Positions 47,202 through 50,971 of a stretch of 64,000 bases of DNA are shown in pieces. The stretch's first letter is position 1. Each line of letters starts with the position of its first letter. A program made the position numbers and the translations under genes. The notes under the pieces are model-generated. The model made no database searches and had not been told where the DNA came from. It was given only the letters and a program-made list of their open reading frames with translations. Source of the DNA: Rickettsiales bacterium (GTDB lineage Bacteria; Pseudomonadota; Alphaproteobacteria; Rickettsiales; SXRF01); assembly GCA_025464625.1 (NCBI GenBank), contig JAOAUZ010000003.1:62001-126000 (forward strand). Direction: 5' to 3'.

Positions 47202-47278
47202 TGGCGCACCCGAGACGATTCGAACGTCCGACCTTTGCCTTCGGAGGGCAACGCTCTATCCAGCTGAGCTACGGGTGC
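47202..47278 (-). tRNA. tRNA-Arg(CCG)
   Basis: A cloverleaf with acceptor GCACCCG/CGGGTGC, D-stem GCTC/GAGC, anticodon stem TTGCC/GGCAA with loop CTCCGAA (anticodon CCG), a T-loop TTCGAAT, discriminator G and an encoded CCA. The 3'-terminal 19 bases are duplicated at 47084. Confidence 0.95.
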
Positions 47279-47337
47279 AAATTCTACTATGGTTAGCTGC
47301 AAATTGGGGAATATTCCACAAATAGTTTATAATTCAT

Positions 47338-47474
47338 GTCATCCCCGCGCAATGTGGGTTTTGTCATTGCGAGGAGCTTTAGCGACGTGGCAATCCAACT
47401 AGATTCTGGATTGCTTCGCTGCGCTCGCAATGACGGAAACAAAAATACCGTCATGCCAGCGAAGGCTGGCATCC
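47338..47474 (+). repeat. Cluster of three palindromic repeat units
   Basis: First a partial GTCATCCCCGCGC..GTGGG unit (47338-47359). Then a 72-bp unit with inverted ends GTCATTGCGA (47363-47372) and TCGCAATGAC (47425-47434). Last a hairpin GTCATGCCAGC-GAAG-GCTGGCATCC (47450-47474), followed by a T-rich stretch that could terminate transcription. Confidence 0.8.
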
Positions 47475-47556
47475 ATACCTTTTTATTTTTGTTTGTCATG
47501 AAGTTAAGATAAGAAGGCACTTATTTCTGTCATTATCAAAAAATAAAAAAAACTTC

Positions 47557-47600
47557 TTGACATTAGTAACTAATTAAACTAATTACTAATTAGTTATTAG
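47557..47600 (+). promoter_or_regulatory. Promoter with palindromic ACTAATTA operator cluster
   Basis: A -35 TTGACA (47557-47562) runs into TAACTAATTA (47567-47576) and its exact inverse TAATTAGTTA (47587-47596). ACTAATTA recurs at 47569, 47578 and 47585. The repeats cover the spacer and -10 region, as for a repressor site; the helix-turn-helix-like protein just downstream may bind it. Confidence 0.6.
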
Positions 47601-47617
47601 AAAACTCTAATGTGTAA

Positions 47618-48040
47618 ATGAGATGGTTGGTTATTAAGATGGTAGATTTCAGTAGACAAAAGATTGAAGCGGCACGGATGCCGCCTGCGTTGGTGGCAAA
47701 ATGGTCAAAACCTATATTGAGCGAAGGATTTGTTCCTTTCCCAAAACTTCTGTTACGATGCCTTCCAAAAATATTTAAGGGTGATAATGCTATAGAAAAA
47801 TTAGCCGTAATATTAGCGATTGCTGATTTTCAAAGAGATGGATTAAAGCGTTATCCAAGTATTGAATTCTTGGCTTTTACCGCTGATATGAAGCCCGCTG
47901 ACTTTCAAAAATTAATTAGCTCATTAGAAGATGAGGGGTTAATTTCAGTTGAAGAAAATACAAATGCAGAGGGTGAAACTGGTTTAAAAATTAGTTTGGA
48001 TGGTCTCCTAACAAGGATTCAGATCCTAACAAAGGTATAG
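47618..48040 (+). CDS. Small winged-helix-like hypothetical protein
   Basis: A 140-residue soluble protein. The middle and C-terminal parts (about residues 50-125) are consistent with a winged helix: YPSIEFLAFTADMKPADFQKLISSLEDEGLISV has the spacing of a DNA-binding helix-turn-helix and wing. No family name is recognised. An alternative start is 47639 (MVDFSRQK). A palindromic operator-like cluster directly upstream suggests autoregulation. The stop codon overlaps the first base of the inserted tRNA gene, so the two are likely co-transcribed. Confidence 0.6.
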   Translation: MRWLVIKMVDFSRQKIEAARMPPALVAKWSKPILSEGFVPFPKLLLRCLPKIFKGDNAIEKLAVILAIADFQRDGLKRYPSIEFLAFTADMKPADFQKLISSLEDEGLISVEENTNAEGETGLKISLDGLLTRIQILTKV

Positions 48041-48149
48041 TGATGTAGCTCAAAGGATAGAGTATCCTGCTCAGCTAAGTATTGGTGTGATGTAGCAATT
48101 ACACTATACAGCAGGAAGGTTGTAGGTTCAAGTCCTACCATCACTCCCA
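48039..48149 (+). tRNA. tRNA gene with a 35-nt insertion in the anticodon loop (possibly Val)
   Basis: All cloverleaf parts are intact: acceptor AGTGATG/CATCACT, U8-A9, D-stem GCTC/GAGT with GG in the loop, anticodon stem TCCTG/CAGGA, a 5-nt variable loop, T-arm GTAGG-TTCAAGT-CCTAC, and CCA. The anticodon loop, however, is 42 nt (48070-48111) instead of 7. Removing 35 nt gives exactly a 76-nt tRNA. A simple excision would leave loop CTCACAG (anticodon CAC) or CTTACAG (TAC), both Val, or CAG. The insert contains a 10-nt copy (48087-48096) of the gene's own 5' end (48040-48049). The 35 nt are far too short for a group I intron. Functionality is unproven; it could be a pseudogene. Confidence 0.65.
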
Positions 48150-48175: not shown

Positions 48176-50401
48176 CTACTCAAACCTATTGCTTCTCGGA
48201 AATCCAGTTGGTGGCAATCTGCCAGCATCGGCGCGGTTTCCTGTCCATGCTTTCAGGTCGGTTTCCACTCGGGTTTTACCGCCTAATGCCCAGCTTAAGC
48301 CTTCTTTCAGGGTGAAGCATTTTATATCCGCCAGTTCACAATCTTTATATTTCTGCAAAGTCACACCTTGCCCCTTTTTCATCACAGGGATTTGTGACAG
48401 CGGGAATATCAGCAGCTTGCGGTTTTCACCAATCACCGCCACATGGTCACCATCCACTGGTGTGCAGATTATGGCTTTGGCATTTTCCATAACATTCAAG
48501 ATCTGTTTTCCACCTCTGGTTTGCGCTTCCACATCGGCAGCTTCCACCACAAAACCTTTGCCGTTGCTGGCGGCGATGAGTAGTTTAAGTTCAGGTGTAA
48601 ATATTGAAATATCGACAATATCCACGTCATTTTCCATATCGATCATCAGGCGTACAGGCTCGCCAAAACCCTTGCCACGCGGGATTTTATCACAAGGCAA
48701 GGTATAAAAACGACCGTTAGAAGCGAACAACAATAACTTATCAGTGGTCTGTGCATGCAGAGCGAATCTTTCTTCATCACCTTCTTTATGCTTCATATCG
48801 GAAACATCGGTTAGATGCCCTTTAACCGCGCGCAGCCAGCCCATTTTCGAGCATAAAATCGTGATTGGTTCTTTTTCTACGAATGCTTCAATGTCAATTA
48901 TTTTACCAATTGGTGCTTCAGCAAAATCCGTGCGGCGTTTGCCGAGTGCAGTTTTTTCACCAAATTTCTTTTTGATTTCGCCAATTTCATCGCTGATTCT
49001 TTGGTTACGCTTTTCGGATGAGGCGAGGAGGGCTTTGAGTTCCTTTTGTTCTTTGGAAAGCTCATCATGCTCATTTCTAATCTCAAATTCTTCCAGCTTG
49101 CGCAAGCTACGCAGGCGCATATTAAGAATCGCTTCCACCTGCACTTCGGTGAGCTTCCATTTTTTCATCATGATGGGTTTTGGCTCGTCCTCAGTGCGGA
49201 TGATGCGGATTACTTCATCAAGATTGAGGTAGGCAATAAGCAACCCACCAAGAACTTCAAGGCGGTGCGCGATTTTTTCAAGACGGTAATTCGTACGCCT
49301 CACCAGCACTTCCATACGGTGTTCAAGGAAAGCAAGGAGAATCTCTTTCAGGTTCATAACCTGCGGCGCGCCGTTGGCATTCAGCACGTTCAAATTCATG
49401 TTAAAGCGGGTTTCAAGATCTGTGACTTTGAACAAAGATTCCATCAGAATTTCAGGGTCAACGCTGCGGTTTTTTGGCTCAAGAACTATGCGGATTTCTT
49501 CCGCTGATTCGTCAAGAATATTACCAAGCAATGGCAGTTTTTTGTTTTTGAATAATTCTGCGATGCGCTCTATCAATCTTGATTTTTGAATCTGGTAGGG
49601 AATTTCAGTGATAATAACCTGATACAAACCATGGCTGAGTTCTTCTTTATTCCACTTAGCACGCATGCGGATTGCACCACGTCCAGCCTCATAAGCCGCC
49701 ACGATATTTTCTGGAGTTTCAACAATTATGCCACCAGTTGGAAAATCAGGACCAGCGACAAACTGCATAAGTTTTGCAACGGAACAATCAGGATGTTTAA
49801 TAATATATTGCATGGCGTTGCACAGCTCGCCGACATTATGTGGTGGAATCGATGTTGCCATACCCACAGCGATACCTTCCGAGCCGTTGGCAAGAAGGTT
49901 AGGGAACGCAGCAGGCATCACTATCGGCTCTTCATCCTGCCCGTCATAAGTGGGGCGGAAATCAACGGTGTTTTCGTCAATACCGTCAAGCAGTGCCATA
50001 GCAACTTCGGTGAGTTTTGCTTCGGTATAACGCATGGCAGCAGCATTATCGCCATCTACCGAGCCGAAATTTCCTTGACCATCAACCAGCGGATAACGCA
50101 CAGCAAAGGATTGGGCGAGGCGCACCATCGCTTCATAAACGGCGCTGTCACCATGCGGGTGATATTTACCAATCACGTCACCCACCACCCGCGCGCATTT
50201 TTTATAGCCAGACTTAGGGTCAAGTTTTAGCTGCAACATGGCAAATAGCAGACGACGATGCACAGGCTTCAAACCATCGCGTACATCAGGCAGGCTGCGG
50301 GCGGTGATGGTAGAAAGTGCATAAGCTAAATATTTTTCCTCCAGCGTTGTGCGGAAAGAAACCACATTTATTTGCTCAGGGCTAGACGATTTCGGTGGCA
50401 T
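48176..50401 (-). CDS. parC: DNA topoisomerase IV subunit A
   Basis: A 741-residue ParC. The N-terminal domain has ARSLPDVRDGLKPVHRR, the quinolone region KYHPHGDSAVYEAMVR with wild-type Ser and Glu, and the catalytic Tyr in AAMRYTEAKL. The C-terminal beta-pinwheel is shorter than in GyrA and lacks a clear GyrA box, supporting ParC. It decatenates daughter chromosomes with ParE (not in the window). Confidence 0.93.
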   Translation of the reverse strand: MPPKSSSPEQINVVSFRTTLEEKYLAYALSTITARSLPDVRDGLKPVHRRLLFAMLQLKLDPKSGYKKCARVVGDVIGKYHPHGDSAVYEAMVRLAQSFAVRYPLVDGQGNFGSVDGDNAAAMRYTEAKLTEVAMALLDGIDENTVDFRPTYDGQDEEPIVMPAAFPNLLANGSEGIAVGMATSIPPHNVGELCNAMQYIIKHPDCSVAKLMQFVAGPDFPTGGIIVETPENIVAAYEAGRGAIRMRAKWNKEELSHGLYQVIITEIPYQIQKSRLIERIAELFKNKKLPLLGNILDESAEEIRIVLEPKNRSVDPEILMESLFKVTDLETRFNMNLNVLNANGAPQVMNLKEILLAFLEHRMEVLVRRTNYRLEKIAHRLEVLGGLLIAYLNLDEVIRIIRTEDEPKPIMMKKWKLTEVQVEAILNMRLRSLRKLEEFEIRNEHDELSKEQKELKALLASSEKRNQRISDEIGEIKKKFGEKTALGKRRTDFAEAPIGKIIDIEAFVEKEPITILCSKMGWLRAVKGHLTDVSDMKHKEGDEERFALHAQTTDKLLLFASNGRFYTLPCDKIPRGKGFGEPVRLMIDMENDVDIVDISIFTPELKLLIAASNGKGFVVEAADVEAQTRGGKQILNVMENAKAIICTPVDGDHVAVIGENRKLLIFPLSQIPVMKKGQGVTLQKYKDCELADIKCFTLKEGLSWALGGKTRVETDLKAWTGNRADAGRLPPTGFPRSNRFE

Positions 50402-50405
50402 ATTT

Positions 50406-50702
50406 TTACGGATGTGGAGTTATAGCTAAGATGGTGATTATATTTTTGCCCGCCCCATAATGCCAGAAAATTCTATAGGCTTGTGGAGTATTATTTTCTG
50501 CATATGCTTCAAAGACTTCCTCGCCACCCATAGCTTTTATGCTGGAATATTTATGTGTGTTCAGGCTAGGGTGACGTGGGTTTTTCTCAAGTAACCCAAG
50601 AGCTTTCCGCACAGCTTTCAGGCGTTTGGCGAGGGCTGGTGTTTTCTCTAAGCTTCTATATTGTTGTTCAGCAATTTCTGTAAATACAAGGAAAAAAGCC
50701 AT
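50406..50702 (-). CDS. RelE/ParE-superfamily toxin-like protein
   Basis: A 98-residue small basic protein with a RelE-like order of helices and strands (FTEIAEQQYRSLEKTPALAKRLKAVRKAL, then AYRIFWHYGAGKNIITILAI). It is encoded directly after the antitoxin-like gene (2-nt gap), the usual layout of a type II toxin-antitoxin pair. Target and activity are not shown. Confidence 0.72.
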   Translation of the reverse strand: MAFFLVFTEIAEQQYRSLEKTPALAKRLKAVRKALGLLEKNPRHPSLNTHKYSSIKAMGGEEVFEAYAENNTPQAYRIFWHYGAGKNIITILAITPHP

Positions 50703-50704
50703 TT

Positions 50705-50971
50705 TTAATCTTCTGCAAATTTGGCAAATTTGCCTAGTGATTTTACTTTGCCTTTGTCTGATTGTTCTATTCCTTTTAGCACAGAGGATAGGGCTTCTTT
50801 GTTATTTAATAGCCAAGCTTCGCGTGTTGGAATTTCAATAAAAGGTTCTAGTATAATCCGTTGTTTTTTATCAATCGATACATGAAAACTGCTCACTCCT
50901 TCAGCTAGCTTGCCCAAGGTTATCCTACCTTTTGCATCTGGCCTAAGTGTTTTTTCAGTTATTGTTTGCAT
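50705..50971 (-). CDS. Antitoxin-like protein of the RelE-like pair
   Basis: An 88-residue protein whose N-terminus (TLRPDAKGRITLGKLAEGVSSF) resembles AbrB-like or similar DNA-binding antitoxins, with a C-terminal helical tail (NNKEALSSVLKGIEQSDKG) that would wrap the toxin. It precedes the toxin gene by 2 nt. Probably autoregulatory. Confidence 0.7.
   Translation of the reverse strand: MQTITEKTLRPDAKGRITLGKLAEGVSSFHVSIDKKQRIILEPFIEIPTREAWLLNNKEALSSVLKGIEQSDKGKVKSLGKFAKFAED

Follow-up and report, generated by a model that had tools for sequence, protein, structure and literature searches.

The RNA gene at 48039-48149 of the window (the whole stretch of 64,000 nucleotides of Rickettsiales DNA analysed here) is, judging from sequence comparison, most likely one copy of a family of tRNA-scaffolded hairpin RNAs of about 110 nt that occur in plasmids, islands and chromosomes. 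The members share their architecture, a tRNA-like fold, a bulged hairpin and a tight coupling to the stop codon of the gene upstream, and the family is very probably a real RNA maintained by selection. The family is well supported and its function we infer: the RNA most likely forms one half of a mobile two-gene module with a regulatory or antitoxin-like role, a reading that, taken as a whole, we place at about even chances.

The window locus

The features of the locus and the evidence for each are as follows.

47202..47278, minus strand: flanking ordinary tRNA-Arg(CCG) (tRNA searches)
47281..47617, no strand assigned: remainder of the tRNA-Arg(CCG)-parC stretch missing in a same-genus genome (G003), partly dispersed repeat (genome comparison)
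47618..48040, plus strand: DnaD-N-terminal-like winged-helix protein, 140 aa (profile matches)
48039..48149, plus strand: tRNA-shaped RNA, its anticodon loop replaced by a hairpin (Rfam tRNA and family models R1 and R2)
48065..48116, plus strand: extended anticodon arm (fold of the window RNA)
48065-48071/48110-48116, plus strand: 7-bp stem of the anticodon arm (same fold)
48072-48078, plus strand: 5' bulge of the anticodon arm (same fold)
48079-48109, plus strand: inserted hairpin, loop 48092-48097 (same fold)
48176..50401, minus strand: flanking parC-like topoisomerase gene, convergent (conservation in relatives)

The Rfam tRNA model matched 48039-48146 with 51.2 bits (gathering score 29), and the family models R1 and R2, whose training copies include the window RNA, scored it at 88.1 and 79.8 bits, respectively. 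ARAGORN did not call the RNA at default settings; with introns allowed it reported a tRNA-Val(cac) at 48039-48149, interrupted by 35 inserted nucleotides. The 42-nt anticodon loop, 7-bp acceptor stem, C73 and encoded CCA are as the first-pass annotation had described them from the sequence. All five helices are formed in the fold of the window RNA (z -3.2). The repeat of 10 nt that had been noted between the 5' end of the gene (48040-48049) and the insertion (48087-48096) is real: among 20,000 shuffles of the insertion, a single one had 10 nt in common with the initial 14 nt of the gene. It is a peculiarity of the window copy, as the 25 other copies tested share 2-6 nt at most with their 5' ends. 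A pseudogene made by local duplication is unsupported, because the repeat is absent from those 25 copies.

The element lies within a stretch of about 890 bases separating tRNA-Arg(CCG) from the gene that, judging by its sequence, we take to be parC, copies of which are 73-96% identical in the 11 relatives searched (same genus and family). In G003, which belongs to the same genus, 49 bases separate the two aligned flanking blocks and the element is missing from the corresponding site. Parts of 47281-47617 are repeated elsewhere in the host genome, with 15 additional partial matches of 69-96% identity. The window RNA has no full-length match in 54 relatives, which yielded short partial matches only, and the 140-aa protein has no match in 18 relatives. 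A search of the host genome (1.9 Mb, 7 contigs) found no second copy of the RNA gene and 40 other tRNA genes, Val(tac) and Val(gac) among them, whose 3' ends, judged by eye, are CCA.

Two small adjacent genes beside parC (50406-50971, minus strand) are a possible toxin-antitoxin pair; the first has a weak likeness to YhaV/ParE toxins (E 0.025 and 0.06) and the pair has no match in PADLOC.

Distribution of the family

A total of 28 RNAs at 25 loci, the window included, were identified in plasmids and chromosomes of Alpha-, Beta- and Gammaproteobacteria. The loci are the window, L074, L077, L079, L080, L081, L087, L093, L095, L219, L247, L248, L249 (two RNAs), L250, L251, L253, L255, L256, L257, L258, L259 (two), L260 (two), L261, L275 and L276; the sources include Methylocaldum, Spongiibacter, Alcanivorax, Thiodiazotropha, Caulobacter, Phenylobacterium, Xanthobacter, Bradyrhizobium, Microvirga, Acidisoma, Paraburkholderia and Accumulibacter, among others. 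Copies were gathered by RNA and protein searches of plasmids, a DNA-pattern scan of genome contigs, searches of viral contigs and searches of whole genomes with the RNA models. L217 and L257, L219 and L263, and several loci of the window's own copy represent the same places and were counted once. L087 is counted as a member and was omitted from the 25-sequence alignment, being below its cut-off, and L275 and L276 were found after that alignment was built. The R1 scores of L087 and L081 (39.7 and 59.0 bits) are within the range of ordinary tRNAs, and both were included because of their long anticodon arm and their position behind a winged-helix gene.

A plasmid search with the window RNA led to a 25.7-kb plasmid of Methylocaldum szegediense, on which a helix-turn-helix gene is followed 12 bases on by a tRNA with an anticodon-arm hairpin; the protein is 31% identical to the window protein over 106 residues. 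Two candidate plasmid matches, L094 and L096, turned out to be ordinary tRNAs. A Nostoc plasmid, pC052_G, carries 28 tRNA genes in a tandem array within 2.3 kb (L075, 196-2499). The pattern scan of genome contigs returned 14 stretches, 11 of them true copies. L252 (ordinary tRNA length), L254 (an archaeal tRNA with an insertion) and L262 (no model match) were dropped. The Njordarchaeota tRNA of L254 (238-337) has a TTT anticodon and, by eye, an insertion of some twenty-odd nucleotides past the loop, which is probably an ordinary archaeal intron. Ordinary tRNAs dominate the whole-genome RNA-model searches, so that the counts from these are lower bounds: in 385 genomes of the class, with 9 candidates scored each, long matches among those listed occur in G000, G364, G408 and G189, and among 398 genomes of the phylum at least two pass E 1e-15, the host genome included. 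The E. coli genomes searched gave no match.

Phage records searched with the RNA contained no place covering 80% of the query; the 40 of 458 matches listed all represent one T-arm match in Vibrio phages, and the one match examined was an ordinary tRNA. Protein matches in phage records were weak, the window protein matching one record and the Methylocaldum protein two. Two exact patterns found nothing in viral contigs, a loose pattern returned at least 120 stretches, none of the 120 listed being a copy by the criteria applied, a more specific pattern found two true copies, and a protein scan confirmed nothing. A phage origin was rejected, as the phage-record searches and most viral-contig searches were without family copies, those two true copies excepted.

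Two complete protein-RNA modules stand in tandem at L259 (2067-2887). At L249 and L260, two RNAs lie behind a single protein gene.

Conserved structure and departure from decoding tRNAs

In the alignment of 25 copies to model R1, whose fitting to the structure biases it in that structure's favour, 95.1% of the cells of the named structure pair and 23 of 31 pairs have two-sided changes. None of 500 shuffles reached the observed values, and in a control with the pairing partner slid by 1-3 columns, pairing fell to 35.9-52.5%. The inserted hairpin has two-sided changes in all nine of its pairs and 87.6% of its cells paired in the same copies, and a consensus fold from this R1-fitted alignment likewise yields the extended arm. 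The 5' bulge has the consensus UUUCKA (U 22, U 17, U 21, C 24, K 24 and A 20 of 25), and a single G stands opposite the bulge in 24 of the 25 copies.

The bases of the tRNA tertiary contacts (T8, A14, the GG of the D-loop and the T-loop TTCRAGT) are kept in the 25 aligned copies, the exception being one gap at the first G of the D-loop GG. The anticodon loop measures 38-44 nt in seven of eight copies measured (the window counted once) and 61 nt in L087; a 7-nt loop with a consistent anticodon was not encountered, the candidate triplets varying among copies when compared by eye. With L276 left out, CCA is encoded at positions 74-76 in 11 of 27 copies, one base later in six and is absent in ten, and the discriminator is C in 12, T in 8 and A in 7. 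Bases of the L-shape are thus kept while CCA, discriminator and anticodon vary, which, on comparative grounds, makes an aminoacylated decoding tRNA unlikely and a tRNA-shaped scaffold the likely identity of the family RNA.

The first-pass annotation was correct that this is no ordinary Val tRNA gene, and ARAGORN does find intact Val tRNAs, Val(tac) and Val(gac), at other places in the genome. It was also correct in excluding a group I intron, the insertion being 35 nt and Rfam matches in the window at gathering score being to tRNA only. Its small-intron reading is unlikely because the hairpin is conserved and co-varies across unrelated species and the splicing endonuclease family has no match in the genome. 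A rearranged tRNA is apt to the extent that a tRNA body bears a foreign hairpin, and fails otherwise, since the hairpin is a trait of the family; an assembly artefact, which had been raised as the finding that would overturn the annotation, is unlikely because many independent assemblies carry the element. Intron, group I intron, duplication pseudogene and assembly artefact were each set aside as unlikely.

The upstream winged-helix protein

A winged-helix gene precedes the RNA at 20 of the 25 loci. Twenty loci, the window among them, were found without the use of the protein, and 15 of these have the gene. Counted by copies, 23 of 26 tested have it upstream on the same strand, the exceptions being L093, L095 and L257; the ORF list of L275 likewise contains no winged-helix gene, giving four loci without a recognisable one. 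At L276 (97-1334) its position is occupied by a DGQHR-domain (DpdB/DndB-like) gene, 6 nt before the RNA, and the gene adjoining the tRNA-like RNA there resembles lepA; L247 has a DpdB-like neighbour too. In 18 of 21 rows the RNA begins 5-14 nt past the stop codon; the remaining three gaps are 36, 60 and -2 nt, the last belonging to the window, in which the RNA starts with the final two bases of the stop codon.

The proteins form a family akin to the DnaD N-terminal domain: the family matches 2vn2 (E 3.9e-13), and when the L261 protein was modelled with AlphaFold (mean pLDDT 82.1), a fold search with the model returned 2v79. The window protein matches DnaD_N with E 9.4e-5, below the curated cut-off, a phage O-like profile with E 2.6e-6 and the family HMM, which was built with the window protein included, with E 3.7e-47. 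It has lost conserved positions, is 24% identical to the L261 protein and has a short C-terminus.

Winged-helix homologues also occur apart from the RNA, which is lacking in 11 of 16 plasmid homologues chosen by hand from the search lists and in 11 of 12 genomes that have a homologue. Such homologues precede MazF, RelE/ParE and DUF3800 genes. In L268 and L269 the next gene is Abi_2-like above the Pfam cut-off, in L088 it is Abi_2-like just under that cut-off, and in L082 it has no Pfam match. The winged-helix protein would thus appear to serve several modules of toxin or defence type as their common regulator. A compact CCCCGGGCGC...CCGGGG hairpin, for which Rfam has no match, lies between the winged-helix gene and the next gene in L082, L268 and L269 and is possibly an unlisted antitoxin-type RNA.

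Defence-gene neighbourhoods

Neighbours matching PADLOC models include DpdB, AbiJ, HamB with PDC-S54, PD-Lambda-3_B, QatC, PsyrA/PsyrT and SngC; further defence neighbours are PD-Lambda-1 and, on plasmids, AbiTii and a type II restriction enzyme. In a sample of 20 neighbours that is biased, having been hand-picked by eye, nine match PADLOC at E < 1e-10, at six of the nine loci sampled. When the longest ORF within 3 kb was taken at 12 loci, clear matches were found at five (L247, L250, L256, L258, L261), short partial matches at two (L251, L257) and none at five (L249, L253, L255, L259, L260), against 0 of 10 beside ordinary tRNAs, a comparison that is imperfectly matched, as the control flanks were 1.5 kb, the controls were the first 10 of 17 loci and some ORFs may be spurious. 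The results for L250, L258, L259, L260 and L261 come from the scoring of the hand-picked set, the L261 ORF differing by 6 bases. None of the five window neighbours matches a PADLOC defence model.

Probable function and alternative explanations

In the mechanism proposed, which draws on the general behaviour of RNase P and the footprint of the ribosome, the upstream gene and the RNA would be transcribed together, and RNase P and the 3' tRNA-processing enzymes would recognise the tRNA body and cut the RNA out of the mRNA, releasing a stable RNA unable to decode. A terminating ribosome would compete with folding of the acceptor stem; release of the RNA and translation are probably coupled, because a ribosome that reaches the end of the upstream gene would sit over the acceptor strand. 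The winged-helix protein would regulate the unit, and the bulged hairpin would bind a partner and so act as a regulatory or antitoxin-like RNA. We advance more tentatively, as a single joint claim that is possible and yet doubtful, that these RNA-protein modules are a novel mobile class serving in bacterial conflict, in which a natural tRNA scaffold would be released only while the upstream gene is untranslated, the bulged hairpin would neutralise or sense a tRNA-targeting effector and the DnaD-like protein would serve as regulator.

Whichever role the family has, the window copy could be a decaying remnant of such a module, which we consider on balance unlikely. Its divergent protein with the short C-terminus, a bulge that in its own fold reads CAGCTAA in place of the family UUUCKA, the lack of defence neighbours (0 of 5) and the failure to find the RNA in 54 relatives or the protein in 18 are all consistent with decay, but its five helices still fold, CCA is present and the reading frame is open.

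The kept tRNA body and lost anticodon, together with defence genes near several loci, would also suit a decoy or bait that mimics a tRNA and whose altered anticodon-like bulge soaks up or reports the anticodon nucleases of phage-host conflict; phage tRNAs resisting host anticodon nucleases have been proposed in the available part of one report (PMC10264068). We judge this role unlikely, since no anticodon-nuclease gene was seen in the neighbourhoods scanned and by eye the bulge sequence matches no one isoacceptor.

The RNA might be a mere mRNA 3' processing or stability element, cut just past the stop codon and released without a function of its own. The short gap from stop codon to RNA recurs behind three upstream genes, namely the winged-helix gene, that of the L093 protein (8 nt) and the L276 DGQHR gene (6 nt), as such an element would predict, but the conserved bulge, the single G and the co-varying hairpin, as well as the two RNAs behind one gene at L249 and L260, would then be unexplained, and this explanation is quite improbable.

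That splicing removes a 35-nt intron to give a functional tRNA is hardly credible: a 76-nt tRNA does result when 35 nt are taken out, and ARAGORN names it Val(cac), but the splicing endonuclease family PF01974 has no match in the genome while four archaeal controls among 14 control genomes were positive, no bulge-helix-bulge is visible by eye in the fold, the hairpin is conserved and co-varies while anticodon and discriminator vary, and Val(tac) and Val(gac) are already present.

Relation to known systems

Archaeal and eukaryotic tRNA introns, which depend on a splicing endonuclease and on a bulge-helix-bulge motif, likewise interrupt the anticodon loop, but neither requirement was found here. 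Bacterial group I introns in tRNA genes also lie in the anticodon loop, but they are much longer, self-splicing elements with a catalytic core, typically over 150 nt, against just 35 nt here. The antitoxin RNAs of type III and abiF systems are not known to be tRNA-shaped. In type III toxin-antitoxin modules the RNA binds its cognate toxin directly and so neutralises it, and the toxin is of a recognisable endoribonuclease type, whereas no such gene was encountered here, the usual partner being the DnaD-like winged helix. At gathering score the Rfam abiF model matched neither the window nor L074, and its search of L077-L092 up to E 0.5 was likewise negative. Engineered tRNA scaffolds carry a grafted RNA where the anticodon arm would be, and the tRNA body keeps it stable.

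The AbiF/abiF RNA system, a type III toxin-antitoxin, is likewise a small protein-RNA module, prophage-borne according to the available part of its description (PMC12373285), and the likeness extends to the winged-helix homologues that precede Abi_2-like genes. The scaffold for recombinant RNA, as far as the available text describes it (PMC3753655), is man-made, whereas the family RNA occurs in nature, is conserved and is tied to a protein gene. The pseudo-tRNA tRNA-Other of Bacillus cereus has a Trp anticodon, and the available part of that report mentions neither a hairpin insertion nor a winged-helix partner (PMC3399842). The top-ranked papers of the open PMC literature, a scope outside which most subscription papers fall, contained nothing recognised as this family, which is apparently undescribed.

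Should the RNA prove functional, the tRNA body would be a stable display scaffold in nature as it is in engineering. The coupling to the upstream gene and the defence settings of several copies offer a testable entry to RNA-based conflict systems of plasmids and phages. Automatic annotation hides such genes, default ARAGORN skipping the window copy, and a simple filter for tRNA hits with anticodon loops of 35-60 nt may reveal further copies. Locus-tag numbers skip one step exactly at the RNA in seven of eight RNA-carrying plasmid records, which suggests that an RNA gene was omitted from the distributed table.
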